From a virus, in IMG/VR virus record IMGVR_UViG_3300041809_000296, positions 1 to 46,083 of that record: DNA of 46,083 bases; one strand, written 5' to 3'. Both the position numbers and the translations under genes were made by a program. This document shows positions 5,101 to 30,395 of this stretch, in pieces. The notes under the pieces were generated by a model. The model was not told the DNA's origin. It worked only from the letters and a program-made list of their open reading frames with translations, and did no database searches. Position 1 is the first letter of the stretch. Each line of letters begins with the position of its first letter.

Positions 5101-7404
5101 CCTAGAACGAATTGAGGCTTGAGTTACTTTCCCTTTTCTTTTATGAAAACCTCCGTCCCCATAAAACCAGGCTTCTAAAATACCTTTAAAAAATTCTTTA
5201 GGAGCATTTTCAAATTTATAAAGATTGAGCTCTTTTATTCCATTAGTATAAAATAAAGCATAAAATAAATCAGCAAGAACACTAGAGGACACTCGTAGAC
5301 GATAAGCTTTGCCTGCCGCTTTATAAAAAACTGCCTTGCATCCAAATTTCTTTTCGTAGGTTTCTTTTAGGACAGATAATTCTGAAAACTCATCATAAGC
5401 ACCGACATGTTCTACTCCTCTAAGGCCGCGCTTCTTAGATGAGTTTAGATTTCCTTTCGCCAAAAAATGGCCAAACAAGAAGCCTAATTCGTAATCTAGT
5501 TCAAGCTCTGTAGGAACCCAACCAACTCCAGATTGTTGATAGCCTCCATGAAACCAATTTTTCTGCCTACAATAAATACGATTTAATTTATTATTAGTCC
5601 AATGGTTCTGAAGTAAAGAAGGTACGTCTAACCAGTCATTAGTTTCATTAGTATGAAGGCGAGGAGATAAAACATAATCTCCTGCTTTTATATCTCCTAC
5701 TCTTAAATCTAATATCTTACCATCACGATATATAGGTATTTCATGATTTGGGGTAAATCCTTGGTCATCTTTATTTCCGGCAACAGAAAGAATATAGACT
5801 GTACCTTTATATTGATATTCAAACCAGTTAGTAGGTTTCTCTAACACTCCTTTTCCATTAGGTATAAGTAGTTGTTGTTCGTAGATATCCTTTACTGTTT
5901 TAAGTCCGTTATTTGTAAGTTGTTGATTAGAAAGGACTTGGCAGCCAACTTCCCACCACCTACCTTGACGAACTGGGACTTCCTCTTCGCCGGAGTATAT
6001 TCTTCTAAGCTCAGCCCCTGTCTTTCTAGATCCAATCATCCCAGGAATGAAAGGAAGCATTAAAGCTAAACCTAATAAAGCTCCTTTTCCAGGAGCTCCA
6101 AACGATTTCCAGAATATACCGGCGCTTTCTTCTATAGTACGAGCATTTATTGCTTTCTCCAGCATTGACCCTCTTGGAAACACTGCTCCAGCTGCGTCTC
6201 TGGAAAGCCTTGCTGCTTTTTGAGCAGCTTGACTTGCTCCTTTAGGAGCAAATTCTCCAGCAACGACATCTCGCATATGGATTAAACCACCAAGAAAGGC
6301 TCCTCCGGCCGGAAGAGCTAACGGTGAGTATTGAGGAAGATTTCCTTCTTTCTCTTGGTACCAATCTGTTACAGACCTAGCTCCGGGTATCACGTCTGTC
6401 AAGTCAGCTCTTATTAGATTGGCTTTCAGTGGTAAGTCTATCAAAGCATTAGATATGTGATGGCCGGTTTTATAATCTATATATCTGGCAGCCGTTAGGC
6501 CTGCCACTATAGGTAAAGCTCTCTTAAGTAGAACTTCGTTTATTAAGCCGCCCTTCTCTAAGAATGGGATAGCAAATACTTTATTATATGTTCCTTGCTT
6601 TAACCCTAAACCTATTTCAGCCAGCATTCTTTGAGGTCTTTCAAACAGCTCGAAAGCCTGGGGACCTAAAGCTCTGTTTAGATTGCCGGCGCCTGATACG
6701 GCCTTTTCAAATAACCCTGCTCCTTCTTCTGCTTCAAAACTGGCATACCATGGAGCAAACTTTACACGAGCTCCTTCTACTGGTATCTTCCCTTGAACAC
6801 CCTTAGATAGATTAAATTTAAGAGGATCCTGCGAATGTCTAACGGCAGCAAAGTTTTCCCATAGTCTAGTTAAAGGGTTAGGTTCACTACTCCATTTAAC
6901 ATGTATATCTTGTAAAGGTCTATTATATCTAAAAGACGAGCCAGTCATTCTGCCGGCTGGGGCGAACCTAACCTTTACTCCAGGCTGCCCTTCCAAATCT
7001 AAGAATGGACTTCCTCTTACTCCGCGCTTGAAACGCAACCCTTCCTGGGAGGCTGCTATTACATCTACTTTATCTCCAAAAATCCTTTGGAAGTGTTCTC
7101 CAGTTGGGGTAAGAACTCCATTAGAAACTATTTGTTCTCTATGGAAGAATAAGTCATCTACTATATAAGACGCCGCCCTCTCGGATAAACCGAAAGTAGT
7201 TCCAAGTCTCTGAGGAGTTATATCCTCGAACTTCTTAGCAAATTTATATAGCTTAGTGGCGTAAGTAGGACTAAATTTAAGATAACTAGTATGAGTATGA
7301 TATAGTAAACTTCCTATAGTACCGAACGCTAAAGTACGCCAGACAGGGGAATATCCTTCTTCTGTTTCGAACGGGTCGATGTTTATTCCCCTATTTCCGT
7401 ACAT
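2191..7404 (-). CDS. Large tail/injected virion protein in tape-measure position, with intein and nuclease-like domain
   Basis: This 1737-residue product lies directly downstream of the tail-chaperone pair, where contractile-tailed phages normally keep the tape-measure gene. An intein occupies residues 488-895; the spliced product would be 1329 residues. Extein features are a hydrophobic stretch near 440-460, a conserved-looking RWWEVG/STQW motif at the intein insertion point, and a region around 1240-1386 resembling a staphylococcal-nuclease OB fold (begins VDAIEGTVKN, ends with INRELIQRGYGRFRE and an EEQAMHGRAGRLFGKYAEE helix). I see no long coiled coil, which is odd for a tape measure, so an ejected DNA-entry protein is a good alternative. 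The start is ATG with AGAGGAAAT upstream; the stop is TAG. A terminator at 7425-7452 separates it from the chaperones. Confidence 0.75.
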   Translation of the reverse strand: MYGNRGINIDPFETEEGYSPVWRTLAFGTIGSLLYHTHTSYLKFSPTYATKLYKFAKKFEDITPQRLGTTFGLSERAASYIVDDLFFHREQIVSNGVLTPTGEHFQRIFGDKVDVIAASQEGLRFKRGVRGSPFLDLEGQPGVKVRFAPAGRMTGSSFRYNRPLQDIHVKWSSEPNPLTRLWENFAAVRHSQDPLKFNLSKGVQGKIPVEGARVKFAPWYASFEAEEGAGLFEKAVSGAGNLNRALGPQAFELFERPQRMLAEIGLGLKQGTYNKVFAIPFLEKGGLINEVLLKRALPIVAGLTAARYIDYKTGHHISNALIDLPLKANLIRADLTDVIPGARSVTDWYQEKEGNLPQYSPLALPAGGAFLGGLIHMRDVVAGEFAPKGASQAAQKAARLSRDAAGAVFPRGSMLEKAINARTIEESAGIFWKSFGAPGKGALLGLALMLPFIPGMIGSRKTGAELRRIYSGEEEVPVRQGRWWEVGCQVLSNQQLTNNGLKTVKDIYEQQLLIPNGKGVLEKPTNWFEYQYKGTVYILSVAGNKDDQGFTPNHEIPIYRDGKILDLRVGDIKAGDYVLSPRLHTNETNDWLDVPSLLQNHWTNNKLNRIYCRQKNWFHGGYQQSGVGWVPTELELDYELGFLFGHFLAKGNLNSSKKRGLRGVEHVGAYDEFSELSVLKETYEKKFGCKAVFYKAAGKAYRLRVSSSVLADLFYALFYTNGIKELNLYKFENAPKEFFKGILEAWFYGDGGFHKRKGKVTQASIRSRDLVNVIAIKKLMSLFGAAGFIREESTSFHKEYQLPGLAGKSFHGYRICMGLESLANLSEESVNIHKNTGLALDNIACESGTRKYIIFEDYIAYEVVKVREEYYNGPVYDFTIDSDHHYEVLGYITHNSTQWSGTRITAWRPHASVLMKSHAKEISLYGSEENYWSHNLFLHPIKHFSGPYYLESLHYEDRPYPITSPAFSNVPLVGPLLAATIGRVIKPPVRMHEDEWKAGDDYTLYSNRLEPRGPGALPPSEPVEEFSLWHAFKREAFTMTDFIGLPGFIMRSAFNAAYPSQGRKQDVYLQGSRQMTSTSKAYYEKNLGAGMFISPDIEHGFMGYTEPLRRFVQPEGYTPQVNELKNQMPSWIPGEDYLLNAKTGDPYSKLEMGWARLPGAGFEAIHPELKGVDPEDYPDIYKLKILGDAFPYSREYQKYSSIVRAQAKDNPDLQVEYERITEQVKQTKESTMQTAKRHFNAPVDAIEGTVKNASPYGVELEEYPGRTFRFSAVGTSMADLTAEILGASNKITKAQAVREADTKAKERAAFISQALAGGTHIKAVIPRGAAESSEDIRAVISAGGDNINRELIQRGYGRFREDLGGAEEQAMHGRAGRLFGKYAEEMFFEGDQSILNPMRYLPSPFHTKFAQERTAYSQYLQQEVIGTRMRRWDRPIHDFLAVYMRGAIAKVTGADVIPREVEHRRDLDTMVDMLSYLRGLSEASRDPKNRGRYTSQSKRTVIGANLFGSAGYVASLLQSREARYFKKFVEETDPDVRSKILDVVPDETKVALQAQWIKQQAAIRVSEGKDSGVDTSQGVPYTKEDIEEYKQAKTKLQLGDYLRSRQIAKFFFTRNIHLPDKKGAALDPNLDYQDVKLKIINQEGYDAHDFNIFDDRSQMLWRKPYVDGAVRELTSGDSRNQDQIRQAVEQLMIGAGNSNPDVRYTTRPSHRSRANVRIEADVNDENDLLTDIRRNSE
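4720..5943 (-). mobile_element. Intein with LAGLIDADG homing endonuclease
   Basis: In-frame intein of 408 residues (488-895 of the host protein). It starts with Cys1 in EVG|CQVLSNQQL and ends in YITHN followed by Ser+1 of the C-extein, so all three splicing residues (Cys1, terminal His-Asn, Ser+1) are present. Block B shows TPNHEI. Two dodecapeptide motifs of the LAGLIDADG type are visible: LGFLFGHFLAKGN and FKGILEAWFYGDGGF, each with an acidic or equivalent polar position near its end; the first carries Lys where an acidic residue is usual. Block F is VYDFTIDSDHHYEVLGY. The intein DNA is noticeably more AT-rich than its surroundings. It should self-splice; whether the endonuclease still cuts is uncertain because of the first-motif substitution. 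Confidence 0.93.
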
Positions 7405-8532: not shown

Positions 8533-9510
8533 TTAGTTCATGCTGCGCGCCAGGAAACTGTAACTATCGAGAATCGAGCTATCTCCGTCGGCCAAAGTCT
8601 GCTCATTTGCTGTTAAAATACAATTCTTTATCGTCTTGGTTACTGTACGGCCGCCGCCCTCAAATACAAGCTTTATATCGAACGGAATGTTTCTATATGT
8701 AGCGTTATGGTTTGGTTGCTTGTTAGGGTTGGCTACAGATGCGGCGACTATTGAAGGCAAAGTAGAATCATTGGCAAACAATTTATCCAACTGGGCCCTT
8801 ATAGCAGACAATTGTTGTTGTGTCGCTCCCTCATTAGGCATACTTGATAAAGATAAATACTGTTGATATAAAGTTATAGCAGCTTGTTGTTTTGAAGGGG
8901 CTGTACTAACTGGAGTTGACTTCTTTGCGTGCTCATTCAATACAACATACAAATAACCTTCCGATATAAAGTTTATACTAAATTGTCCTTGAATAAGAGA
9001 TTTTCCATTACCTACTCCGTCCATTAGATTAGAACAATAACCGAATACAGGTACCCTATTATCCTGTAAGGTATACTGAAAACCCACAAGCTCGTCTATA
9101 AACATCTCTCCTATATACATTAGAGCCTGTGTAGGAGTAAAGTATTTACCATAATTATATGGGGGGAAGGTAAAAGGATAGGGAGTATTTGTTGTAGGGG
9201 TAGGGGTTGTAGGAGTAGCAGCAGCCCGTGGGTTAGTAGGAACTCCGGACGAAGTAGCGCTACTATCAGAAATAGATAAAGGGGGAAAAGTATACTGAAC
9301 TTTATTAGGTAATACTGTAAAAGAATCCGTCCTGGTATTAGTACCAAGAGTCCAAGTTATACTATAAGGACCGCCGAATAGATAAGAAGCCGCTGTCTGC
9401 TGTACACTGCCTGTAGAATCAGTAATACCGCTATCAGTAAAACCACTCGGGCCAGTAACCGTGTAGGAGGCGCCAGGAGTGTTCAATACGATACTAATAG
9501 AAGTAGTCAT
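8533..9510 (-). CDS. Tail tube-like protein 3 with N-terminal Ig-like domain
   Basis: 325 residues. Residues 1-75 look like an immunoglobulin-type beta domain (ASYTVTGPSGFTDSG, FGGPYSITWTLG). A Pro/Thr linker near 90-115 follows, then a tube-type core that begins with YIGEMFIDELVGFQYT and contains VPVFGYCSN and a GQFSINFISEGYL strand. This core has the same order of motifs as the two preceding genes: a helix, a strand ending in P-V/I, then a G-rich loop and a GxxxI strand. It is the third of three such genes and the most diverged, so it may be a minor tube, tube-tip or baseplate-tube protein. A Gln-rich insertion lies near 200-250. Confidence 0.6.
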   Translation of the reverse strand: MTTSISIVLNTPGASYTVTGPSGFTDSGITDSTGSVQQTAASYLFGGPYSITWTLGTNTRTDSFTVLPNKVQYTFPPLSISDSSATSSGVPTNPRAAATPTTPTPTTNTPYPFTFPPYNYGKYFTPTQALMYIGEMFIDELVGFQYTLQDNRVPVFGYCSNLMDGVGNGKSLIQGQFSINFISEGYLYVVLNEHAKKSTPVSTAPSKQQAAITLYQQYLSLSSMPNEGATQQQLSAIRAQLDKLFANDSTLPSIVAASVANPNKQPNHNATYRNIPFDIKLVFEGGGRTVTKTIKNCILTANEQTLADGDSSILDSYSFLARSMN

Positions 9511-9513
9511 TAC

Positions 9514-10473
9514 TTATCCAGCTAGATTATTGTTAGGGGAATTCAAGTTAGTAGAATTAAAAGGAGAATTTAGTGTATTACTTTGCTGTTGCTTCATTAC
9601 ACTACCAAATGTCTTATTATTCTGGAGCATGTTTGAAGGAGTCGTAGTCACTCCAAAAAATGAATTGAAGTTTAGCGGCGCCAGCGGCGTTAGGTCCGCC
9701 GCCACCCAAGTAATCTGTTGTTCTAATAGAATATCCTGTACACTAATTACAGTCCCATCGGTAACAAGTTCAACCCCTAATAGGCGCTGGGAGCTTACAT
9801 AACCAGCTTCATTAGAGAATAGCAAAGTAAAATCTATAGGAGGTAATTGATCTAATTTAGTATAAGTTGTATCTTTGCTCAAATCAGTCATTAAACCAGA
9901 CTGTAGAAATGTATATAATACTTCCGCTGTAGTCTTGGATAGTACCATAGTACCTGCTATTGTGCGCGTGCCGCGGCTAAACCCTTTAGGATTAATATAA
10001 CCGAACGCTCTAACTGGAACCTTAGACCTATGAATAGAAACGCTAAGGGTAGTTATTTCTATTAGTTGCTTGGCTATCCTAGATTGTATATTGGAACCAT
10101 TGAATACGGGCGTTTGTGGAATCTCTACTAAAACTCTACAATCAGATGCCGTAAATGTAGATTCTCCAGGATTGTCGTAAATAGTATTAATGGGATTCAA
10201 AGCAGGAGTTGCTATAGCGTTTGCTGTAGAAGGATCAAAAGTTAATACAGTTCCATTTCCTAAGTCTACATTTACTAAAGAGTTTGATTTGACTGGGCGG
10301 CCCTTGACGTCCATTATCGTAATAGGCTCAAGCGGTATAGGAGTAGAACCTATATCAGGAGTTGTAGTTGAAATAGGCTCCGAAGACACAACTATAGGAC
10401 TGCTCGACGACAAAGTAGCGGCAGGGTTTTGAAAATTCGATTGGTTTATATTCGCTATAGAAGGAATGGACAT
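9514..10473 (-). CDS. Tail tube-like protein 2
   Basis: 319 residues. The core motif is VSIHRSKVPVRAFGYINPKGFSRGTRTIAG, closely parallel to that of the preceding gene (EKAPIYTMGSPDPRAYSRN); the later region also matches, with LPPIDFTLLFSNEAGYVSSQRLLGVELVTDGTVISVQD against LPFDITLAATNEYGAMAGAKILGVEIL. Such pairs are typical of phage tube proteins or the tube-like proteins at the ends of the tail. The N-terminus is low in complexity (Ser/Thr/Pro) and the C-terminus is Asn/Ser-rich, both probably disordered. ATG at 10473 overlaps a hairpin-rich leader. Confidence 0.68.
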   Translation of the reverse strand: MSIPSIANINQSNFQNPAATLSSSSPIVVSSEPISTTTPDIGSTPIPLEPITIMDVKGRPVKSNSLVNVDLGNGTVLTFDPSTANAIATPALNPINTIYDNPGESTFTASDCRVLVEIPQTPVFNGSNIQSRIAKQLIEITTLSVSIHRSKVPVRAFGYINPKGFSRGTRTIAGTMVLSKTTAEVLYTFLQSGLMTDLSKDTTYTKLDQLPPIDFTLLFSNEAGYVSSQRLLGVELVTDGTVISVQDILLEQQITWVAADLTPLAPLNFNSFFGVTTTPSNMLQNNKTFGSVMKQQQSNTLNSPFNSTNLNSPNNNLAG

Positions 10474-10564: not shown

Positions 10565-11605
10565 TTATTGCTGAGGTTGCCCGCCAGCTATATTGGCAAA
10601 TGGCGACTGCACAGCTTGGAGAGGTTCTACCGCGCGAGCTACGAAAGTAGCCTGAGTTTCAGTAACAGTATCGTCTATAGATACACCAGTGCCTTCATTA
10701 AGGATTTCGACTCCGAGAATCTTGGCTCCTGCCATAGCTCCATATTCATTAGTAGCAGCCAAAGTAATGTCGAACGGCAATATTTGGTCGGAATACCAAG
10801 GAGAGGCCAGTTCAGATAATCCACCTACAGAAGATAAAGTCAAATCATCCAAAGACGAGATATTAGAACCGATAGAAGGACCTATGTCACGAGTAATACC
10901 TGCCTGGAATACGGCCGCCCCTGTTACAGCATCAGGATCCATGTACTGTGGGCGGATCTCGTCTGCTTGGGCTACAAATTTGCCGCGAGCTTGATAGAAC
11001 AAATACAATAAAGCGTGGCGATCAAAGTTGACCCAAATCAAAGAGCCGGCGATGCCGCGCTTGTTGCGGGAATAAGCGCGAGGGTCAGGGGAACCCATAG
11101 TATAAATAGGCGCCTTCTCTCGTGTTATGGAGTAAGAAACGGCCTGCAGCTCTGCAAACTGGAATTGACCGATGCAAGCTCTATAATCTGCGCCCGCGAA
11201 CGAGTTATAAGAACGAGCAATCTCTGATTCTAATTGTCCGCCCACAAGAGGGTTAGTAGCCATTGAAAAATCTCCTTGAATTATTGTGTTGCTGACACCA
11301 GTACCTGATTTTAATAAAGTAGTTCCTACAACATAACCATCTACGGTTAGAGCAATAGTTGCATAACCGTTAGTTTGACTTGTTGCTAATCCATCAGGGG
11401 TTATAGATACTACGTCGGGGTCTGAAGAACTCCAAACTCCTCCACCAATTCCTATCTGGGATCCGTCCTCATAGGTATCTACTACTGATAATTGTGAGGT
11501 TTGGCCTATAAGGAGGGGCCCAGCATTAACAAATTCTCTCGTGTATACAGGTTCGTTGTAAGGCTCTTGGCCATATTGCCCGTATCCATATCCGGAGGAG
11601 GACAT
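10565..11605 (-). CDS. Tail tube protein with N-terminal Big_2-type Ig domain
   Basis: A longer frame starts with TTG at 11635 inside the sheath gene, but ATG at 11605 has an excellent ribosome site (GAAGGAGGATCCATT) and is chosen; the product is 346 residues. Residues about 25-105 form a bacterial Ig-like domain of the Big_2 type (VWSSSDPDVVSITPDGLATS, GYATIALTV). The rest is a tube-like fold with ITREKAPIYTMGSPDPRAYS and RNKRGIAGSLIWVNFDRHAL. It lies immediately after the sheath gene, as expected for the major tube protein of a contractile tail. The Ig domain would be displayed or used in tail contacts. Confidence 0.75.
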   Translation of the reverse strand: MSSSGYGYGQYGQEPYNEPVYTREFVNAGPLLIGQTSQLSVVDTYEDGSQIGIGGGVWSSSDPDVVSITPDGLATSQTNGYATIALTVDGYVVGTTLLKSGTGVSNTIIQGDFSMATNPLVGGQLESEIARSYNSFAGADYRACIGQFQFAELQAVSYSITREKAPIYTMGSPDPRAYSRNKRGIAGSLIWVNFDRHALLYLFYQARGKFVAQADEIRPQYMDPDAVTGAAVFQAGITRDIGPSIGSNISSLDDLTLSSVGGLSELASPWYSDQILPFDITLAATNEYGAMAGAKILGVEILNEGTGVSIDDTVTETQATFVARAVEPLQAVQSPFANIAGGQPQQ

Positions 11606-11624
11606 AATGGATCCTCCTTCTTCA

Positions 11625-13841
11625 TTACTGTCCAATACCTACGTTAGCAGTAAGCTGGATAAGTTCGTCGGCAGGATTGCAAGTTAGGGTCAAAGTTGCG
11701 TGTCCTATCTTTTGCTGAGCTGCTGTAGATGAGATAACTACGTTAGAATGGTTGCAATAGCCACGAGTTGTAAGATTGACTAAGTCTTGATCCAACTGAG
11801 TCTTCATAGCGGTTAAAGTCAAGCCATCAAGAGTAGACTGACCAATATAACCATTAGCTCTGTTAAGCAGAGTCTGTATTACCACTCCCATGCAACGGAC
11901 GCGCACCATGTTAGTATAGTCGCTATTATCGGAGGCCGCAGTTAAGTCATGTAACAAGGCAGGCTGAGCATTGTTTCCTTTGAACCTAAGGATACTGATT
12001 TTAGCCTCAGTCAAAGCATCCATTTGTGGAGGCGTTGCTTGCCAAGTCTGAGTTGCTTTAACTTGCTTGTTTGTTAGTCCGCTAGTAGCATCTAATGAGG
12101 ACAAGAAACCAGCTACAAGGCCGGCAATATTATTAACATAACTGACAGCCCAGCCATTAGATAGAGCTGCCCAATCAGCCGCAACGTGGAGATGGGCGCC
12201 AGCGTCGATAGGATTGCCATTAGGGTCTATCTCTATCTCACCGTCATATGAACCATCCGCAGTCACATATAAACCTGCTACACGGAAACCATTAGAGTAG
12301 TCAGCGCATAGAGAGTTCATCTTCTCTGCAGTAGTACCTACTAAGTAAGGATTGCCAAGCAAACCAGAACCATAAGTTACAGGATCCCCTGCAGTATTAT
12401 AAGTTGGAAGATAGCCAATCCACTTGCGGGTGTTCACTAAGTTAGTAGAGACCGGACCAGTAGTTCCAATAACTGCCACTACCAGAGGACCTATTTGGCT
12501 TAAATCGGCCGCAAAGTTTCCAAGAGTGCATCCATAGTTTACTTCCATAAATCCGGCGCCTTGACGGGCGGCAGCAGAAGCAAAACCTGGGGTTGCACCA
12601 GACTGAATATCAATCAAATCGTTCTGAACTATAAATGTATTAGTTCCAGCAACAGAAGAATCTTCTGTTCCAGTAATAGTGATTACAGCTCCAGTAACAC
12701 CAACTGTAATACCCGTTACTGAATTACCCTCTATAATTCCTGTAATCGCTGCGACTGCGTGAGCAAGAGTAGAATTGGAAAGAGTTACTGCTACCTGAGG
12801 GCCTGATCCCATCTGAAACACTAACGACCCTGATAGATTGTCGCCGGAGTTGGCAGCAGTAAGAACTACTGTGGAAGGAGTAGACAAAGTAGAAGCAGTA
12901 ATAACTGCGGGCAGGGCTCCTTCAAGAGTAGTAGTCAAACCACCATAAGCAGAAACTACGGTTCCATTGGAGTCCACAGACTCAGAAGCCCACTGATAAA
13001 CATTATCGTTGTACGCGTCAGTGGTTACACTCAACCAATCCAACGCGTCAGGATTAGTAACAGGGTTGTTAGCCGCAGTAGTAGAATCAGTAGAGTTATA
13101 GAAGGCTACGTTTGGCTGGTCGAATACGGCGTCAGGAGCATAGATAATCTTAACTACAATGCCCTCTAACAAATCCATAGCTTTACGAAGAGCTATGTAA
13201 AGCTGTCTTCCTGTAAGCTGGGTTCCATCGACTGGCTGTTGGGTTATAGTTGGAAGAGGTTGGTCTGAGGTTCCAGTTAAAGTAGAAAGCTTAGATACTA
13301 AGACGGCGCCAGCCAAAGATGGATCTTCGCCAGTGCCTATGGTCAAACCTACATTGCCAGCAACAGCTCCAGTTATAAAGATATTGGAAGTATCTACTGC
13401 AGCTCCGGCTTGATTAGAATAAACTATCTCGCCGTTTTCATAAACAGCAAGAACACCTTCAGCATACCAGATAGCATACTGACTAGCTGAGTCTGATTCT
13501 ACATCTCCGAAAGTAATACTAAACCCAAGGGTAGCATGGCCGCTAGTATTGTCAAGTCCAATACCACTTACAACCATAGGGGTTGTTCCCATACGGAAGG
13601 CAATGATATTGTCAGAATATGTCGCACACTCTTCAATAGCTCTCTCTAAACTTCCAGAGAAGCCAAACTGGCCAGCGGCTACGGAACGGTCGGTTACTTG
13701 ATATGGCGTGTTAACAACGCCCTGTCCAGCTGTGCCAATAACCAGAATGGCATCATCTTGAGGCGCGAACGCAGAAGTCAGTCCGCCATCCACGATATTA
13801 ACGATTGTTCCTGGCAGATAGTTATAAGGCAGAAAAGGCAT
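11625..13841 (-). CDS. Tail sheath protein with an inserted beta domain
   Basis: 738 residues. The N-terminus (MPFLPYNYLPGTIVNIVDGG, then DDAILVIGTAGQGVVNTPYQV and a segment on filling the ring with LERAIEECATYSDNIIAFRMG) is characteristic of contractile-phage sheath proteins. The C-terminal third also fits: TADGSYDGEIEIDPNGNPI, HLHVAADWAAL, AGLVAGFLSSLDATSGLTNK and KISILRFKG. The sheath surrounds the tube and contracts to drive injection. Residues about 315-415 hold an extra beta domain (begins ASTLSTPST, ends TGTEDSSVAGTNTF and NDLIDI) that is clearly related to one in the head protein at 22150-23751. It probably decorates the outer surface. The following tube gene starts near its end. Confidence 0.92.
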   Translation of the reverse strand: MPFLPYNYLPGTIVNIVDGGLTSAFAPQDDAILVIGTAGQGVVNTPYQVTDRSVAAGQFGFSGSLERAIEECATYSDNIIAFRMGTTPMVVSGIGLDNTSGHATLGFSITFGDVESDSASQYAIWYAEGVLAVYENGEIVYSNQAGAAVDTSNIFITGAVAGNVGLTIGTGEDPSLAGAVLVSKLSTLTGTSDQPLPTITQQPVDGTQLTGRQLYIALRKAMDLLEGIVVKIIYAPDAVFDQPNVAFYNSTDSTTAANNPVTNPDALDWLSVTTDAYNDNVYQWASESVDSNGTVVSAYGGLTTTLEGALPAVITASTLSTPSTVVLTAANSGDNLSGSLVFQMGSGPQVAVTLSNSTLAHAVAAITGIIEGNSVTGITVGVTGAVITITGTEDSSVAGTNTFIVQNDLIDIQSGATPGFASAAARQGAGFMEVNYGCTLGNFAADLSQIGPLVVAVIGTTGPVSTNLVNTRKWIGYLPTYNTAGDPVTYGSGLLGNPYLVGTTAEKMNSLCADYSNGFRVAGLYVTADGSYDGEIEIDPNGNPIDAGAHLHVAADWAALSNGWAVSYVNNIAGLVAGFLSSLDATSGLTNKQVKATQTWQATPPQMDALTEAKISILRFKGNNAQPALLHDLTAASDNSDYTNMVRVRCMGVVIQTLLNRANGYIGQSTLDGLTLTAMKTQLDQDLVNLTTRGYCNHSNVVISSTAAQQKIGHATLTLTCNPADELIQLTANVGIGQ

Positions 13842-20526: not shown

Positions 20527-21870
20527 TTAAGTAGCGTTGTTCACATCGATAGGAGCGCTGGCATCAAATATCTTCGTATTAGGATTCATCAAATCCTGGA
20601 ATGCACTGTTAGAATCGGACAGATTGAATACAGTACGTGCAGGAAGAGTAAACTCGTTAGGACGAACCTTAACATTCTTAGCTACAGCAACAGCCTGTGC
20701 TTCGTGTAACATACCAAAGCCATAAGTTTCCTCAATAGCCATATATTGGATACCATAACGAAGATCAGACCAATCCTTGACGTGTGGATCTTCCTGTACA
20801 ACCAAGGCGCCCAGGTTGCGGGCCTCGAACATAAGGATGTTAGTCAAGCGGTTAATTGGATCGAAGAAGACAAATGGAGATACCAAGATACGGAAAGGAA
20901 GGCCAAGGTAGTTAGGCAGCTCCATGTAGGATTGCTGCTTCTGAGGTAGACCCTGAACTTTGGAAGTCTGACCGCCAGTTAACTGGCCTTGTGTGTACTC
21001 ACCCTGTTGACCTTGACCAAGACCAAGTCCACGATAATTGAAGAACTTGTTTCCAAGCTCAGCAGGATTTCCGCCCCAGTTAGCGAAGAAACTTCCGCCG
21101 CCAGCCTGGATAGCGAATTCACGAAGGACAGGATCCTTGACCCACATCAACCAAGTCATTGGGTGAACTAGCAGTGTGTCTGGAATAAAACCTTGTGCCA
21201 TAACTTGAGCATACATATCGAATATGTCGTCAAGAGTCATGGATCCGTTTAACTTACCAAGATAGTTACGACCAGTAGTAACACCCTTAATAGGCTGATA
21301 CTGTCCTGGAGCTACAGTATTTAAACGGGCGGCAGGATTGTTGTCATAAACAACAGTGCCTAGCTGAGTAATAAAGGAGAAGATATACTCTTCCTTATGC
21401 CGAGCCAGAGCATTACCAGCTAAGCGTAGCCAGTAATTAATCCATGGATAGGTAGATTCCTTCACAAAACGCTCATGAATCTTAAGACCTAAACCGTGAC
21501 GCTTTACAGTCAGCGCAAAGCTTTGTGCTCCGCCGATGTTGATATTCACGAATGGAACATCAGCGCCGTCGGCAACTTCTTCGGCACGAAGTGGTTCGAT
21601 GGCTGGGAATACAGTCATCATACCTTGTTCATATTCAATACGTTGCAGTAAAGACGTGCCGATAAGCAGAGGCTCAATGCCTTCCTGCACCATGGTTGTC
21701 ATAACCCTTGGAATCAGGAACGCTGCATTCTGGATATCCATCGCGTCCTTAATGGAGATTGTTTTCGAAGTCTCCGGATCAAACCCGTTTGTCCGGAAGA
21801 TGGACTCAAGACGACCCAGATTCTTGACGTCTTCGTCGTTCATCTGGAAAGTAGCAGCGTTACGTAGCAT
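20527..21870 (-). CDS. Major capsid protein
   Basis: A longer frame begins at 21975, but ATG at 21870 (MLRNAATFQM) has a strong ribosome site (TTAGGAGGC) and is preferred, giving 447 residues. The protein carries an N-terminal helix, an E-loop-like region around EQGMMTVFPAIEPLRAEEVA, SMTLDDIFDMYAQVMAQGF, PDTLLVHPMTWLMWVKDPVL, a Gly/Gln-rich loop and PFRILVSPFVFFDPINRLTN, as seen in HK97-fold capsids of large myoviruses. It is followed by a strong terminator and preceded by protease and head genes, the classic order. It should form the icosahedral shell after cleavage by the upstream protease. Confidence 0.88.
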   Translation of the reverse strand: MLRNAATFQMNDEDVKNLGRLESIFRTNGFDPETSKTISIKDAMDIQNAAFLIPRVMTTMVQEGIEPLLIGTSLLQRIEYEQGMMTVFPAIEPLRAEEVADGADVPFVNINIGGAQSFALTVKRHGLGLKIHERFVKESTYPWINYWLRLAGNALARHKEEYIFSFITQLGTVVYDNNPAARLNTVAPGQYQPIKGVTTGRNYLGKLNGSMTLDDIFDMYAQVMAQGFIPDTLLVHPMTWLMWVKDPVLREFAIQAGGGSFFANWGGNPAELGNKFFNYRGLGLGQGQQGEYTQGQLTGGQTSKVQGLPQKQQSYMELPNYLGLPFRILVSPFVFFDPINRLTNILMFEARNLGALVVQEDPHVKDWSDLRYGIQYMAIEETYGFGMLHEAQAVAVAKNVKVRPNEFTLPARTVFNLSDSNSAFQDLMNPNTKIFDASAPIDVNNAT

Positions 21871-21928
21871 GTGGTTGCCTCCTAAGGCAGGATAGTCCAA
21901 TAAGGACGAGGGTTGGATTATAAACAAA

Positions 21929-22126
21929 CTAAGATTTTGAGATCTGGACGGTGATTTCTGCTTTGCAGCGATCACACCTAAAAGATCCAGCTATTTGTCC
22001 CAAATCATTAATCTTAGCCAGCAATTTATTACAAGTACGGTTTGTTCCAACCCTCAGAGTATTACAACGCAGGCCGCCATTTACTATGACGGCTGCGCCC
22101 TTTGATATAATTACAGACTGCACCAT
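21929..22126 (-). CDS. Com-like zinc-finger protein
   Basis: 65 residues with cysteines C21, C32, C51 and C54. The segment TCNKLLAKINDLGQIAGSFR followed by CDRCKAEITVQ strongly resembles the Com zinc finger of phage Mu (CNKLLFK ... CPRCK), which binds mRNA and turns on translation of the DNA-modification gene mom. Here ten residues separate the first two cysteines instead of two. The gene is inserted between a head-protein gene and the capsid gene. Regulation of a neighbouring transcript is a reasonable guess; nothing proves it. Confidence 0.65.
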   Translation of the reverse strand: MVQSVIISKGAAVIVNGGLRCNTLRVGTNRTCNKLLAKINDLGQIAGSFRCDRCKAEITVQISKS

Positions 22127-23764: not shown

Positions 23765-26320
23765 TTACTTTGTAGCTGCGAGGGACTGGTATTCAAAACC
23801 AGCCAAGAACCTGCTTTTTTCTTTAGCCGTCATATAACGGAGTTTTGTCTGGAGATTTTGAGCCGCTTGGGCTGCTTCCAGTTCGCGTTGAGAATCAGTA
23901 ATTGTTATTACATGACTGTCGACGCTCTCCGTTACTCGCGCGTTATCGTCCATCTTCTTCAGTGACTCGACGGCCGTTGAAGTAGAATCGGTTTTCTTCA
24001 CCCATTGAAGTCCGTCCAGAATATCCTGTACGGTATCCCTCAAACTAATTAGAGTTCTTTTAGCCAAATCGTTAATCTTATCAGATAACTGGCTTGGAGT
24101 CAATCCTTTATAAGCATCTTGTCCTGTTAGAACTCCATGCATTACAATCTGCTGTGCAAGAGTTACTTTTCCTGCGTTCAATACGGCTTGGCGGGAGTCC
24201 ATCAGGCCGCTGATTTTTGTAGACAAAGTTTCTTTCTCAGCCGTCAATGAGTTAACAGCATTATTCTTTTCATCAACTTCTGCTTTGGATAGAACTACCT
24301 GGTCTTTACCAGCGAGAGCTCTAATAGCCCAACGCATTTCATCATCGGCATCCCAATCCATAAGCATCGCGCGAATTAACCAACGCAACTGATAACCGGC
24401 AGAATCTCTCTTTTCAGAAAGCTTATCATAAGCCTTATCTAAAGTAACTACAAGGTTTACCAGTTCTTCGCGCTCCTCTTCAGAGATACCTTCTTTTAGC
24501 TTGGCGTCGTCTGCCTGCTTCATCATAGAATCTATCAATACAGTAGCTCGGGCGATTCTCTTAGTATCTTCTGGCAGGGAGGAAACTTCGTCTTTCTTCT
24601 TAGCTGTTCCGCAATTAAGAGTCTTAGCTTTGCGCGATACGCAGGCAAGAATTTTAGCTTTTGTATCTGACGATACACTGGCGCGGCCGATTAGGCGCCT
24701 GGCGGCTACCACGTGGGCACAATCTGGCACAGGGAACGAACGGCCGGGGCCACAAAAGGTTCCTTTAGAAAGCTTATTACGCTTCTCGGTAGATAGTTTA
24801 GCATCTGCTACTATTTCGGCAGGAAGTTCTCCGTCTGCTACGGCAGCATCAAGTTCATCTTCAATTTCTTGATTAATACCGTCTACGTCGGCAAAATATT
24901 CTTTATCTGCTTCCGGGGCTGAGTCTTCCCAACCTTCCCAGTTGCAATCTGAGCCGTCGGCTGAACATTCATCGCCTTCAACGCTATTGATTTCTTTGTT
25001 TTGGAAGGCTTTAGTTTTCTTTGCTGACTTCTTAGAAATCTTCTTTCCAGACATACCGTTTGGCGCGGGCTCTACATCCCCATCATCATCGTCGTCATCT
25101 GGATCTTTCTTTTCTTTCTTCTTGCCGTCGGCGTCTTTCTCGCAAGTGCATTCCTTTTCAGGTTTACCACAATCTGGGCACTTCTTCGCGTCGACTGGAG
25201 AAACGAATTCTGCTAACTCTGCGGCCACGGCCGCGTCTATATCTGGAGCCTGATCCCAATTATTCTTTGTAATCTTAGCGTTAAGAGTAGAAACTAAGGC
25301 GCGTTTCTCAGACTGCAGATTCTCTTCCTCTGGGGACCATGCACTCAAACTGGCTCTCAAATCCATGGCTTTTTCTTTAGTTAGATCAGCCGACTTAATT
25401 TCGTCTTGGATCTTTATTACATCTAAAGTGGCGTCGTTTACTTTTAGCATCGGGTCCTCGGTTGCAATAAGGTCTGACTCATATAACCCGTCTTTCATGC
25501 TTATGCCGGCTGTTTCTATTCCGCGCTGTGCATCTAAAGACAAGCCAAGAAAGAATATCTGCTCAAGGCTATCAGTCAATACTTTTTTGCTGAGTGTAGT
25601 TGCGAATGGGTCCGCAGCAAAGTTAATAAAGGAAAGTTCCTCATTTACAATGGCGCCTGAAATCAAAAACATCTGGCGTCCGTCTACTTTTTGACCTAAC
25701 TTATGCTCGCACTTTCCGTCTGCTGCCCAATCAGTATGGCATATAGAACACAAAGCCGAATCAGTCTTAAATCCTACCGATACTGTCAGATACTCATCCG
25801 CAAGAACCTTACGGATAGCTTCTGGGTTAGTTATTCTTAAGCCTAAATCCGTATAACCTAGCCCAGTATACTCATCCAAGGGCATTAGGTTTTCAACAAC
25901 CCAATCTACAGTATCGAATAAATTATGACGTTTGCGGCCGTCATGTTGGTAGAATAGGAAATCTTTTACTATAGGGAAGTCCGCGGCATATTTCCAACTG
26001 GTATCTATGTATTTGGCTTCTAAAACCCTGCCAAGGACGTCGCCTTTTTCATCATGCCCAACTAATACAGGGCGGGGGGTTCTAAGGCAGGTTCCATCTT
26101 TTGTAAACTCTGGCAGCCACGTATGGGCTCCTTCCTGCATCTTATCAGGACGGTAGAACCTCATATTGCCATTTATAATGCCCGCATGGGTAGCCGCTAC
26201 ATGAACCAATAAGCTTCGTCCACCATCGGACTTTGAGTCTTTACACTCAAAAAGCTTATTGCGCTTGGCGTCAACAACTCGCCAGGTCTGCAGATCGCGC
26301 ATCTGAATCCAGTTGCCCAT
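23765..26320 (-). CDS. Prohead protease-scaffold fusion
   Basis: 851 residues. The N-terminal 250 residues look like a prohead protease: GIINGNMRFYRP, PVLVGHDEKGDVLGRV with a probable catalytic His89, and EYLTVSVGF with a probable Ser181. A zinc-finger-like insert follows (CSICH, CEH, residues 191-206). The rest is scaffold-like: long helices, CPDCGKPEKECTC, a run of Asp near 404-413, a Lys-rich stretch, a CGPGRSFPVPDCAH module near 520-560 and coiled-coil regions. Such proteases build the procapsid core and then cut themselves and the capsid. Fusion of protease and scaffold in one chain is known; its length here is large. Confidence 0.78.
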   Translation of the reverse strand: MGNWIQMRDLQTWRVVDAKRNKLFECKDSKSDGGRSLLVHVAATHAGIINGNMRFYRPDKMQEGAHTWLPEFTKDGTCLRTPRPVLVGHDEKGDVLGRVLEAKYIDTSWKYAADFPIVKDFLFYQHDGRKRHNLFDTVDWVVENLMPLDEYTGLGYTDLGLRITNPEAIRKVLADEYLTVSVGFKTDSALCSICHTDWAADGKCEHKLGQKVDGRQMFLISGAIVNEELSFINFAADPFATTLSKKVLTDSLEQIFFLGLSLDAQRGIETAGISMKDGLYESDLIATEDPMLKVNDATLDVIKIQDEIKSADLTKEKAMDLRASLSAWSPEEENLQSEKRALVSTLNAKITKNNWDQAPDIDAAVAAELAEFVSPVDAKKCPDCGKPEKECTCEKDADGKKKEKKDPDDDDDDGDVEPAPNGMSGKKISKKSAKKTKAFQNKEINSVEGDECSADGSDCNWEGWEDSAPEADKEYFADVDGINQEIEDELDAAVADGELPAEIVADAKLSTEKRNKLSKGTFCGPGRSFPVPDCAHVVAARRLIGRASVSSDTKAKILACVSRKAKTLNCGTAKKKDEVSSLPEDTKRIARATVLIDSMMKQADDAKLKEGISEEEREELVNLVVTLDKAYDKLSEKRDSAGYQLRWLIRAMLMDWDADDEMRWAIRALAGKDQVVLSKAEVDEKNNAVNSLTAEKETLSTKISGLMDSRQAVLNAGKVTLAQQIVMHGVLTGQDAYKGLTPSQLSDKINDLAKRTLISLRDTVQDILDGLQWVKKTDSTSTAVESLKKMDDNARVTESVDSHVITITDSQRELEAAQAAQNLQTKLRYMTAKEKSRFLAGFEYQSLAATK

Positions 26321-26611: not shown

Positions 26612-27457
26612 TTAAACAATTGATTTGAACAAAGGCATTACAAGACAAGATAAGGCGCCTCCGCCCTTTTCGTATTCTGATAAATTGAATAATTTCAACT
26701 TCAGATTCATTTTGCCACATATATCTTCCCAAAACGAGACTTTATTTTTATAAGTCGATGAATTAAAATCTATAAGTATGGTATCTTCTATTCTAATAGC
26801 GTTGGTGGTACCAGCGACCCCAAGAGTAAGAGGTACAGGAATAATATTTGTAATTTTTTCGATCCGACTTATTATAGCCTTATCAAGCTCGTCGACTACT
26901 AACAATAAGTTTTGATTATCTATAGGAAAAGCAGAGCAATCGAGATGATATAAATAAGGATTAGTAAGCTTTATTGGAATAACCTCAACTCCAAATTCTT
27001 CTTCAAACCACTTTAAAGCCTCTAAACAAGTTCGTATTCCATAAGCTCCTATATAAGTATTTTTATTTATCTTGTGTAAATCGGCTTTTCCTTCAAACCA
27101 ATAAGGGCAAACTTCAGTATCATAGCCTAAACTAGAGAAGAAATTAAGCCCTATGGGGGTTTCTCCGCGGCGGGGATCGGATCGGAAATTGGAAATAACT
27201 ATTGAATTAGGATGGGAATCTAAATTTACACCTATGTTGGAACAGAAGACTAAGTCCTGGTTGTCTCCTATAGCGGGGAGGAGATTTACAGGCTTACAAG
27301 AAGATACATATTTGTATAGCTTTAGCCACTGGCTCAATGCTTTGTTTTTATCTACGACACGGAGATTGTCTGGTAGCTCCTCCATAAAAATATTGTTAGG
27401 AACTTTGGCTGAAAATGTTGATGGTGGGCACATTAAATACTGAGCTGGCTCACTCAT
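26612..27457 (-). CDS. Amidinotransferase / DDAH superfamily enzyme
   Basis: 281 residues. Motifs in order match the arginine-handling amidinotransferase superfamily: MCPP at the N-terminus, QDLVFCSNIG (67-76), FRSDPRRGE (91-99), FEGKAD (121-126), YHLDCSAFPI with probable catalytic His171, and GGGALSCLVMPL with probable catalytic Cys271. These enzymes use the Cys to attack a guanidino group and either transfer or hydrolyse it. The substrate is unknown: arginine deiminase-like, dimethylargininase-like or a true transferase are all open. It overlaps the decarboxylase-like gene upstream by four bases (ATGA), so the two are probably translated together and may act in one pathway. Confidence 0.72.
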   Translation of the reverse strand: MSEPAQYLMCPPSTFSAKVPNNIFMEELPDNLRVVDKNKALSQWLKLYKYVSSCKPVNLLPAIGDNQDLVFCSNIGVNLDSHPNSIVISNFRSDPRRGETPIGLNFFSSLGYDTEVCPYWFEGKADLHKINKNTYIGAYGIRTCLEALKWFEEEFGVEVIPIKLTNPYLYHLDCSAFPIDNQNLLLVVDELDKAIISRIEKITNIIPVPLTLGVAGTTNAIRIEDTILIDFNSSTYKNKVSFWEDICGKMNLKLKLFNLSEYEKGGGALSCLVMPLFKSIV

Positions 27458-28218
27458 TTTTGAAACACTACCTCCGATAGCCCAGCTTCTACATGAACAT
27501 AATTCAATACTTTAGTCGATAAGGAAAAATCCCCAGGTAAAATCAAATCGGCTTGACTTCCAGAACGAATTAGGGAGAATCTATCGCCTTGTTTATATTC
27601 GGCGCCTTGCTTAATACTAAAAGGGGCTATCACTTTATCATAACTGTCGGCAATTTCTACTATATAGTAAGAATACCCATCATCTCTAACGACTCTATTG
27701 AGCATTCTGGCGTTATGATAGAGATATTTATCTATCTCTTTATAAGCTCTGTCTAAGCGGCCGTGCAGAAGGTTTTCTTCAGCAAATATAAGAGGCTTGT
27801 TATGCGAATCTATTGGCTCAAGTTCTTCATAATATAGCCGGCCATTAGTAGGAAGCCTTAAGGTATGAACATCATAATCGGTAAGAAATATACCTATAGC
27901 TAAGCAAGGGCCCTGAAATAAAGGATAACCACCAAGCAAATCCAACGCTTTATAGTGTAAGCCTTTTATTTCTACTTCTTCGTCTAAAGAATCAAGCTGT
28001 ATCGCGTACAGAATGATACCGTCGGCTGGAGAATAAAATACGTCTTTATTAGGAACTATCTTTCTGGTGGGATCTCTATATACGATAGTATCGTAGAATT
28101 CATCATCAGGCATATCTCCGTACTTCTCTTCCATTTGCTTTGCCCACTTCATAAAATGAAGCTTATCTTTGGCAGTTTTGGAAGATGAATCTAACCGTAT
28201 ATTGTCTAATGTCTCCAT
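27454..28218 (-). CDS. Phosphatidylserine decarboxylase-like pyruvoyl enzyme
   Basis: 254 residues. Family motifs are present in order: SPADG (63-67, with Asp66), FLTDYDVHTLRLPTNG (111-126, with His118), HNARMLNR (169-175) and, at the C-terminus, a GDRFSLIRSGSQADLILPGD segment in which Gly220-Ser221 is the likely self-cleavage site that creates the pyruvoyl group. In the known enzyme, Asp, His and Ser form the processing triad and all three are here. The first His of the DYHxxH motif is Asp. The enzyme turns phosphatidylserine into phosphatidylethanolamine; here the substrate could also be another serine-like amine precursor. No membrane anchor is visible. Its location between portal and protease is unusual. 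Confidence 0.72.
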   Translation of the reverse strand: METLDNIRLDSSSKTAKDKLHFMKWAKQMEEKYGDMPDDEFYDTIVYRDPTRKIVPNKDVFYSPADGIILYAIQLDSLDEEVEIKGLHYKALDLLGGYPLFQGPCLAIGIFLTDYDVHTLRLPTNGRLYYEELEPIDSHNKPLIFAEENLLHGRLDRAYKEIDKYLYHNARMLNRVVRDDGYSYYIVEIADSYDKVIAPFSIKQGAEYKQGDRFSLIRSGSQADLILPGDFSLSTKVLNYVHVEAGLSEVVFQK

Positions 28219-28226
28219 AATGCCTT

Positions 28227-30395
28227 CTACTCCTGGCTTTGCTCGTCTTGTAGTATATCCGTAGAGGAGTCGGGATCAAGGGCATTAGAAATTAAAATAG
28301 AGATTAAGTCTGGATCGTAAGTTGTCCATAACATTACTTGTAAGTTATCTAATGCTATGTTTATATTTGGCTTTTCAGTTTCATCAGTAAAGCTTTCTTC
28401 GAACTTATCTATAGTTTCTTTAAGAACTTGTCCAACAGTTGCTTGGTACTTCTCATGGTCTACGGTACCGTTATCATCCTTAAGGTCTTCAATTAACTTT
28501 AAGACAGAGTCTGTCATTTCTGCCGCCAGACCTTCTAAACTACTCTTAGCTTTAGTAGGCCCTAAGTTAGAACCATACTGATTAGTTGGAGTTTCTTTAT
28601 TCTGAACTGATTTTGCCGCAGGCGAGCTCTTCTTAGCTGTAGCAGATTGTGGGCGGCCAGCGCCAACTCCAGCTACCTTAGCATGAGCAGTTTTAGCTTT
28701 CAAGACTTCAATTGTAGCTTTAGCTTTTCTTTCATGATGAGCTGTTTGATGAGCCGACAGTTTTATTTGAGTTTTGGCTTGGGCTTCAGCAGTTTGTGCT
28801 TGTAAAGGCAGAAGTTCTTTCTGAGCTTCGGCGGCATGGTCGGCAACTTCGATTGCTGATTTGGCTTTGGCTTTTTCAGTCTCTTGAACTAACTTAACAG
28901 TATGTAAAGCAAAGTTAAGTTTGGAACGCTGAGCATCTTTGAAAGCTCTACGACCCATAAGTTTTCGGCACTCATCCTCATCAGCTAAGTTATTCAAAAA
29001 CTGTTGTATAACATGATTCTCAAACTTAATTTTGTTATCAAGGTCGATTTCATGGAAATATATCCAAGTTCTGGCGACAGCTCTTTGAACCGACACTGAA
29101 TATGTGGCTTCTTGGAAGAATTCCTTGAACTGCGACATTCTTATCAGTCCGCCAAACAACTCAAGATCGTTCTTAATAGAATCCTTTAAGTTCTGAGATA
29201 TGTTTTCCGAAGTACTTCTACTTCCCGCATTCTTAGCATCTCCCATGTCTGCAGGGCTTACACCTAAACCTGTGTAAATACGAGCCTTATAGTGTTCTAT
29301 AAGTTTAGAATAATCTAAAACCTTACCCTCAGACCCTACAGCGGATACCTTAACTCTCTCGTCTGTAACGAAAACTCCTTCTTTAGGCATTTGCTGGATT
29401 TGCCAGTGGATCATGTCCACTTCACTCATCCCGCTCTCGCCATCGAAGCCGGCAGGATTTTCTTCATTACCAACGGCTACGTGAAATAGAGGGAATAAGA
29501 AGTTAATGAATAATAACTCTACGTTTTCTTCGAGGCGGCGTAGAGCAAAAATATCATCTTTCACGCCTATTAGGCGGGGCGTCCCATATCTATGTCCTGG
29601 CTTTACATCCCACTTTAGGTGTATAATATCGTCTAAATCTATGTCTTCGTAGGGGGCGCCCGTATCAAAGAATCGGCGCCAATGAATAGGTATCCCGTTA
29701 TTCATATAAGGGAATATCATATGAGCCGGGATTATAAGATAACCAGCTACAGGGTCTTTCTTAGCGTCTGGTTTTCTGGAAACAATAGTAGCGGATTCCT
29801 TACGCACTTTCTGCAAGAAACAATTCGAACATAAAAGTAAATTAAACAAGATCTGCTGGAAGAACGACTCAGTCGTACGTTCCATTACATATTCCATCGC
29901 TTCGTATCTGCGCTGGATATACTCCACATCTGGATCTTGATCTCCGGCTATTTCGAAGCCGTTTCTAAACATAAGAGAAATCTTGCGATTTATAGCTTGT
30001 TTTACAAATGGCTCGCTATCATATATAGTAAAAGGTTCCAGCATATTATATTCCGGCTGGACTATGCCCCATAACCTGCGATAAGTGGAATTAGCGTCAT
30101 CGGTTTTTTGAGCGATAGTTAGACCTAAAGGTTCAAGCTTTTTAAGCCCATCTCTCTCGAACTCACTATCACTAATAAAACGATCATCAGTTGTTTTCAC
30201 CAATGACTTAAATTCGGCCGACCTTTCTCCTAAACCCTTGACTTGTGGCTCAAGATTAATTCCATTTATAGAGCGCACAGTTGCTCGACTTTGGTTTGGA
30301 GTATTTAACTTACCTTCACTCCATAAACCAACACGCCTATTAATAGCGGCCTGCTTCTCTGTTTGTATTTCATTAGTATTAGTTTTACGAGGCAT
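28227..30395 (-). CDS. Portal protein
   Basis: 722 residues with features of large-phage portals: TIYDSEPFVKQAINRKISLM, YVMERTTESFFQQILFNLLL, IPAHMIFPYMNNGIPIHWRR, LDDIIHLKWDVKPGHRYGTP, LRRLEENVELLFINFLFPLF and an ARIYTGLGVSPADMGDAKNA loop near the clip/stem region. An Ala/Lys-rich coiled coil (about 535-595) and a disordered Ser/Ala stretch follow; the C-terminus is acidic. The portal dodecamer forms the vertex through which DNA enters and leaves and to which terminase binds. It lies between two unknown structural candidates and the enzyme pair. Confidence 0.9.
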   Translation of the reverse strand: MPRKTNTNEIQTEKQAAINRRVGLWSEGKLNTPNQSRATVRSINGINLEPQVKGLGERSAEFKSLVKTTDDRFISDSEFERDGLKKLEPLGLTIAQKTDDANSTYRRLWGIVQPEYNMLEPFTIYDSEPFVKQAINRKISLMFRNGFEIAGDQDPDVEYIQRRYEAMEYVMERTTESFFQQILFNLLLCSNCFLQKVRKESATIVSRKPDAKKDPVAGYLIIPAHMIFPYMNNGIPIHWRRFFDTGAPYEDIDLDDIIHLKWDVKPGHRYGTPRLIGVKDDIFALRRLEENVELLFINFLFPLFHVAVGNEENPAGFDGESGMSEVDMIHWQIQQMPKEGVFVTDERVKVSAVGSEGKVLDYSKLIEHYKARIYTGLGVSPADMGDAKNAGSRSTSENISQNLKDSIKNDLELFGGLIRMSQFKEFFQEATYSVSVQRAVARTWIYFHEIDLDNKIKFENHVIQQFLNNLADEDECRKLMGRRAFKDAQRSKLNFALHTVKLVQETEKAKAKSAIEVADHAAEAQKELLPLQAQTAEAQAKTQIKLSAHQTAHHERKAKATIEVLKAKTAHAKVAGVGAGRPQSATAKKSSPAAKSVQNKETPTNQYGSNLGPTKAKSSLEGLAAEMTDSVLKLIEDLKDDNGTVDHEKYQATVGQVLKETIDKFEESFTDETEKPNINIALDNLQVMLWTTYDPDLISILISNALDPDSSTDILQDEQSQE

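Follow-up and report, generated by a model that had tools for sequence, protein, structure and literature searches.

Arginine dihydrolases turn arginine into ornithine, CO2, and ammonia. In ArgZ and AgrE, the dihydrolase domain is fused to a second domain that consumes its ornithine. The PF02666 family, to which the lipid phosphatidylserine decarboxylases (PSDs) belong, also contains PsiD, a soluble fungal L-tryptophan decarboxylase represented by PDB entries. Viral psd genes have been interpreted as lipid genes in a study of ocean viruses (PMC11360552). Pyruvoyl decarboxylases of ornithine and arginine from phages, of the SpeD type, have been shown biochemically, and phage-made polyamines are established (PMC9992855, PMC10407285), indicating that a need for polyamines exists in phages. 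An agmatine deiminase route with ADC, AIH, NCPAH, and HSS is attributed to chlorella virus PBCV-1 in work cited by PMC9992855. Here, we analyze a phage gene pair that encodes a PF02666 protein and an ArgZ-like member of the guanidino-modifying superfamily. With moderate confidence, we propose that a soluble offshoot of the PSD family acts as a pyruvoyl basic-amino-acid decarboxylase and, together with the ArgZ-like enzyme, makes a polyamine-like or guanidino-amine metabolite. The two would form a widespread, undescribed module of phages and bacteria; phages would synthesize the product while their heads are being assembled, and bacteria would secrete it, with one bacterial order sensing it as well.

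The window, by which we mean the whole stretch of DNA analyzed, is a 46-kb IMG/VR virus record (46,083 nucleotides). It carries terminase, portal, major head, and tail-sheath genes and is therefore probably a fragment of a contractile-tailed phage; no phage DNA nearly identical to the window was found. The decarboxylase-like gene is the first of the pair and the ArgZ-like gene the second (Table 1). Their junction on the reverse strand reads ...TTTCAAAAATGAGTGAG..., in which the stop TGA and the start ATG share the letters ATGA. PHROGs assigns the pair to phrog_12670 and phrog_12759, neither of which has a known function. The coordinates and strand of the two genes, their overlap, and the Asp/His/Ser and His/Cys motifs are all as given in the initial annotation. 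The same annotation placed the pair between portal and protease genes. The portal assignment is sound, whereas the protease label, which belongs to an ORF separated from the ArgZ-like gene by a gap of about 290 bases, is weakly supported. Apart from the major head protein listed in Table 1, a separate ORF at 10565-11635(-) also matches a major head family (phrog_9206). Elsewhere in the window, a 1737-residue ORF at 2191-7404(-) includes an intein splicing domain that spans residues 497-895 (PF14890, E = 1e-8), with a score of 35.5 bits where the cut-off is 35.8.

Table 1. The gene pair and its surroundings in the window
Feature	Position	Strand	Details
PSD-family pyruvoyl decarboxylase proenzyme	27454..28218	-	254 aa; D66, H118; predicted self-cleavage at Gly220-Ser221; without N-terminal membrane anchor; pair-specific acidic E147 and D191
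Guanidino-modifying-superfamily enzyme, nearest to ArgZ/AgrE arginine dihydrolase	26612..27457	-	281 aa; N22, N74, R96, E122, H171, D173, C271
ATGA overlap of decarboxylase-gene stop and ArgZ-like-gene start	27454..27457	-	Putative translational coupling
Portal protein gene, directly upstream of the pair (context)	28227..30395	-	phrog_9232, E = 1e-33; Pfam Phage_portal, 1e-7
Next large ORF downstream of the pair, possible prohead protease (context)	23765..26320	-	Weak match to phrog_18299, E = 0.07
Major head protein, head-module context	20527..21975	-	phrog_3922

The two genes are nearly inseparable in phages. Among 80 IMG/VR loci found with the ArgZ-like protein, 79 carry the decarboxylase beside the ArgZ-like gene, nearly always as the next gene; at the lone exception, the contig stops 66 bases past the first gene. 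Most pair junctions are one-base overlaps. The ArgZ-like gene occurs in 47 public phage records (E ≤ 0.01) and the decarboxylase in 45, namely 39 of Campylobacter Fletchervirus and six of Bacteroides DAC-type phages, and both groups of phages also have the ArgZ-like gene. The pair is adjacent in DAC19. In Fletchervirus about 43 kb lie between the genes, and the retention of both despite this separation points to a link in function and not just in position. A homing endonuclease adjoins the decarboxylase gene in Fletchervirus (L004). Between the ArgZ-like and decarboxylase genes of locus L028 lies a small gene (10907-11434(+)) whose product has cysteines like those of a zinc finger and may be an HNH-type endonuclease.

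The pair has a head-gene context in four phage types. Phages of a large T4-like group have the order terminase, portal, protease, probable scaffold, Gp23 major capsid, ArgZ-like, decarboxylase, and PhoH, with the pair directly after Gp23. In the window and in loci L102 and L085, the pair adjoins a portal gene or is separated from one by a few genes, and these portals belong to two other families. The head-module placement described for the window is thus seen in several phage lineages. In the group that comprises DAC19, L028, and L005, the pair is found among replication and nucleotide genes rather than head genes. The DAC19-type Bacteroides phages also have dCTP-deaminase/dUTPase-like and IMPDH/GMP-reductase-like genes after the pair (L002:18393-19875 and L028:13284-14744), raising the question of whether these phages alter their own purine nucleotides as well. 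In one phage locus (L092), a gene of the agmatine deiminase/peptidyl-arginine deiminase family, at 9115-9975(+), is positioned between the pair genes (PF04371, E = 2e-24).

The association extends to cellular genomes. When the decarboxylase was used to query 84,980 genomes of bacteria and archaea, the matches fell into two clear score classes, a high-scoring class of 51 loci (at least ~146 bits) and a low-scoring class of 29 loci (at most ~130 bits) that represents ordinary lipid PSDs. An ArgZ-like partner is encoded in the same locus for 47 of the 51 high-scoring decarboxylases and for none of the 29 ordinary lipid PSDs. The high-scoring class includes Latescibacterota, Verrucomicrobiales, Actinomycetota, Xenorhabdus, Photorhabdus, Sulfurimonas, and Sedimenticola, among others. 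A search of plasmids gave only distant DDAH-like or ordinary PSD matches. The near-perfect co-occurrence in phages and bacteria bears out the functional coupling that had been suggested from the window alone, and we reject chance adjacency of the two genes. In a quick tree, the phages of loci L091-L095 fall within the bacterial clade and the T4-like phages stand apart, so that phages are likely to have acquired the pair at least twice; the sequence of the window is on a long branch. A contig from a Flavobacteriales MAG (L119) has its genes arranged as in the phages and clusters with the T4-like ones in this tree, a hint that the T4-like group may have a Bacteroidota host.

The bacterial loci, which span many phyla, commonly encode exporters: a MATE exporter follows the pair in 20 of them and an ABC exporter is present in others, which suggests that the bacterial product probably leaves the cell by secretion. 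Ten Verrucomicrobiales loci (L124:11663-17101 and nine more, for example L109, L125, L130, and L144) combine the MATE exporter with a solute-binding protein, and a dCache-HAMP hybrid histidine kinase is often next. The one binding protein tested is PotD/PotF-like and nearest to spermidine/putrescine-binding proteins, with E values of 1e-36 to 1e-55. Judged by these neighbors, the arrangement looks like a set of genes to make, export, and sense a polyamine. The polyamine-binding neighbor is confined to a single bacterial order and counts as one evolutionary observation, not ten. PLP decarboxylases of the ornithine/arginine families are present in several pair-bearing bacteria, and given these other putrescine routes, putrescine supply alone does not explain the exporters. 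A test for simple replacement of PLP decarboxylases by the pair gave a mixed result in bacteria and so lent this idea no support.

These neighborhoods bear on two other interpretations. The make-export-sense appearance of the Verrucomicrobiales loci, with exporter, periplasmic polyamine-binding protein, and sensor kinase, would suit a pair that lowers arginine or makes a signal amine and so alters the host or neighboring cells instead of serving packaging. The phage loci contain neither exporter nor sensor, however, and the position in the head module is conserved in the T4-like group; we regard such a role as distinctly unlikely. The initial annotation had raised the possibility that DNA bases or virion proteins of the phage are modified; a group derived from arginine or ornithine would then be attached covalently. 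The head-module location in several phages agrees with this idea, as do the nucleotide genes near the DAC19-type pair and the modification of Fletchervirus DNA, in which deoxyinosine stands in place of guanosine according to work cited in PMC8713573. Deoxyinosine, however, would require neither enzyme in any obvious way, and in many bacterial phyla the pair is found where there are no head genes, with exporters and a polyamine-binding protein as its neighbors. The bacterial exporter operons speak for a small molecule in free form, and we consider covalent modification very unlikely.

The first gene had been assigned to the PSD family, and this call is borne out by a match to PF02666 PS_Dcarbxylase (E = 5.4e-21, residues 47-246) and an intact triad. 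D66, H118, G220, and S221 are invariant in all 77 viral relatives. The protein nevertheless falls short of the curated NCBIfam cut-offs for lipid PSDs, the best being TIGR00164 with 60 bits against the required 230. PF02666 is its only family match; none to the AdoMet decarboxylase (SpeD-type) family was found. We estimated the presence of a membrane anchor from the maximum 19-residue Kyte-Doolittle mean before the PADG motif, in those proteins that could be measured. None of the 75 viral and 33 bacterial decarboxylases linked to the pair exceeds 0.45 by this measure, indicating no membrane anchor, and 27 of 31 proteins in a comparison group lie above 1.6. The comparison group consists of lipid PSDs together with a few high-scoring proteins that have no partner. 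The pair family is further distinguished by E147 and D191, both of which occur in 124 of 124 sequences, compared with 0 of 26 and 1 of 26 lipid PSDs, respectively. The gain of these two acidic residues suggests a positively charged substrate.

The predicted structure of the decarboxylase has a pLDDT of 81.5. Its best and only convincing fold matches in the PDB are to PsiD, although the agreement is modest (TM 0.41-0.44). By analogy, PsiD offers a precedent for a free amino acid as substrate within the family, and the pair-linked enzyme probably acts on a soluble amino acid as well. The initial annotation had counted lipid head groups among the possible targets, such that phosphatidylserine would be converted to phosphatidylethanolamine and the head group then changed further. 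Membership of PF02666, the treatment of viral psd genes in the literature (PMC11360552), and the capacity of MATE or ABC proteins to flip lipids could be cited for this chemistry. However, every pair-linked decarboxylase tested is without the anchor that lipid PSDs carry, the acidic residues are specific to the pair, and no lipid-synthesis genes were recognized among the neighbors. We find a lipid role hardly credible and have rejected it.

The second protein is most similar to ArgZ/AgrE in both sequence and fold. The best PDB sequence match is to ArgZ/AgrE (E = 4e-21; 1e-33 with a profile), and the NCBIfam ArgZ models score 96-97.5 bits, below the curated cut-off (450 bits for NF052232, which scores 96 bits here). 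The NCBIfam DDAH model gives 77 bits, also below its curated cut-off, and Pfam DDAH_eukar gives 22.8 bits against a cut-off of 23. Both enzymes of the pair belong to known superfamilies, and neither reaches the curated cut-off of a characterized subfamily. The ArgZ-like protein is predicted with a pLDDT of 91.3, and the model superimposes onto product-bound ArgZ (6jv0) with a fold E value of 6e-24 and TM of 0.86/0.89. Other structures follow at a distance, namely DDAH (4e-15), HsvA (4e-11), and GATM (5e-10), with SxtG also further away.

The alignment identifies C271, H171, and N74 as the equivalents of Cys264, His168, and Asn71 of ArgZ. Two of these positions, N74 and C271, correspond to the sites mutated in the ArgZ structures N71S (6juz) and C264S (6jv1), and the title of the 6juz entry describes a trapped covalent intermediate. 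N74 and C271 do not vary among 79 viral sequences and are almost as constant in bacteria, and H171 is likewise invariant in the 79 viral relatives. Loss of Ser221 or Cys271 among relatives, which the initial annotation had singled out for inspection, is seen in none of the 77 and 79 viral sequences, respectively. N22, R96, E122, and D173 are also conserved, and position 126 is Asp in phages and mostly Glu in bacteria. Beyond what the PDB titles and the aligned mutant sequences convey, the roles of individual ArgZ residues are presumed.

Because the protein is nearest to a hydrolase and conserves the residues mutated in it, the sequence and the model favor a hydrolase that releases ornithine over a transferase, although the fold alone does not decide the matter. 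The second gene had been called amidinotransferase-like; the superfamily and its His and Cys stand, and the transferase subtype is probably incorrect. Were it nonetheless a transferase, the PSD-like enzyme would make an amine from an amino acid and the ArgZ-like enzyme would move the amidino group of arginine onto it, yielding a new guanidino-amine for export by bacteria and for use or release by phages. GATM, SxtG, and HsvA are amidinotransferases of the same superfamily, exporters adjoin the bacterial pair, and bacteria with the pair often have other routes to putrescine, all of which would fit. Nevertheless, sequence and fold lie much closer to ArgZ than to any transferase: the transferases have fold scores below those of ArgZ and DDAH, and a profile search reaches SxtG only at E = 0.087. 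The Asn that was mutated in ArgZ to trap the covalent intermediate is also invariant. We regard amidinotransfer as unlikely. The order proposed at first, decarboxylation followed by amidination, is accordingly less likely than a scheme in which a guanidine group is removed and a basic amino acid is decarboxylated.

The specific pathway that we propose is a soluble, two-step module from arginine to putrescine, to which we give about an even chance of being correct. The ArgZ-like enzyme would strip the guanidine group from arginine to leave ornithine. The PSD-like enzyme would self-cleave at Gly220-Ser221 to generate its pyruvoyl group and then convert ornithine to putrescine. In the reverse order, arginine would pass through agmatine and reach the same end product. 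The supply of ornithine by ArgZ to its own second domain offers a logical parallel to this scheme. Since the phage genes are mostly among or next to head genes, the polyamine would probably be made late, and it may serve as a counter-ion for DNA packaging or in translation. The packaged DNA of tailed phages carries polyamine counter-ions, which would suit expression together with head genes. Spermidine synthase was not found in 13 viral records tested, a result that is uninformative because putrescine requires none and many of the viral records are fragments. Counting against the pathway are the other putrescine routes of pair-bearing bacteria, the placement among replication genes in the DAC19 group, the Asp/Glu difference at position 126, and the modest fold match of the decarboxylase. 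The substrates, the order of the steps, the product, and the role in the head are what we infer from the conserved genes and residues, the predicted folds, and the neighbors.

If this proposal is correct, phages possess a compact two-gene route from arginine to a polyamine, built from enzymes not earlier linked to polyamines and located in the head module, where counter-ions for DNA are needed. Viral psd genes to which an auxiliary role in lipid metabolism is ascribed, PMC11360552 being one example, may then be misassigned when they belong to the pair subfamily. The proposal would also point to a metabolite, as yet uncharacterized, that is secreted by bacteria including Xenorhabdus, actinomycetes, and Verrucomicrobiales.

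No description of a system with this pair was found in the searchable literature, in keeping with the initial annotation, and its components are best understood next to their nearest counterparts. The dihydrolase domain of ArgZ/AgrE (cyanobacterial Sll1336 and Alr4995) is closest in sequence and fold, shares the catalytic Cys and His and the Asn of 6juz, and is coupled to an ornithine-consuming enzyme. The window protein, however, is only ~25% identical to it and far below the NCBIfam cut-off, and a separate pyruvoyl decarboxylase gene stands in place of the fused ornithine cyclodeaminase domain. With PF02666 enzymes, including PsiD, the decarboxylase shares the fold family and the Asp/His and Gly-Ser self-cleavage motif; unlike the lipid PSDs, it has no membrane anchor, has invariant E147 and D191, is nearly always paired with an ArgZ-like protein, and scores below the lipid subfamily cut-offs. 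HsvA (a polyamine amidinotransferase), SxtG, and GATM have the guanidino-modifying fold common to all these proteins, but their fold scores are more distant than those of ArgZ and DDAH. The SpeD-type phage decarboxylases are likewise phage-encoded pyruvoyl enzymes for polyamines, and the same reaction is supposed for the pair, yet they belong to the AdoMet decarboxylase family rather than to the PSDs, and pairing with an ArgZ-like protein is not mentioned in PMC9992855 or PMC10407285. The PBCV-1 pathway is similar in being a virus-encoded route from arginine to polyamines; it uses other enzymes and more steps, whereas the module described here consists of two genes, to which one phage (L092) adds a third that is agmatine-deiminase-like.
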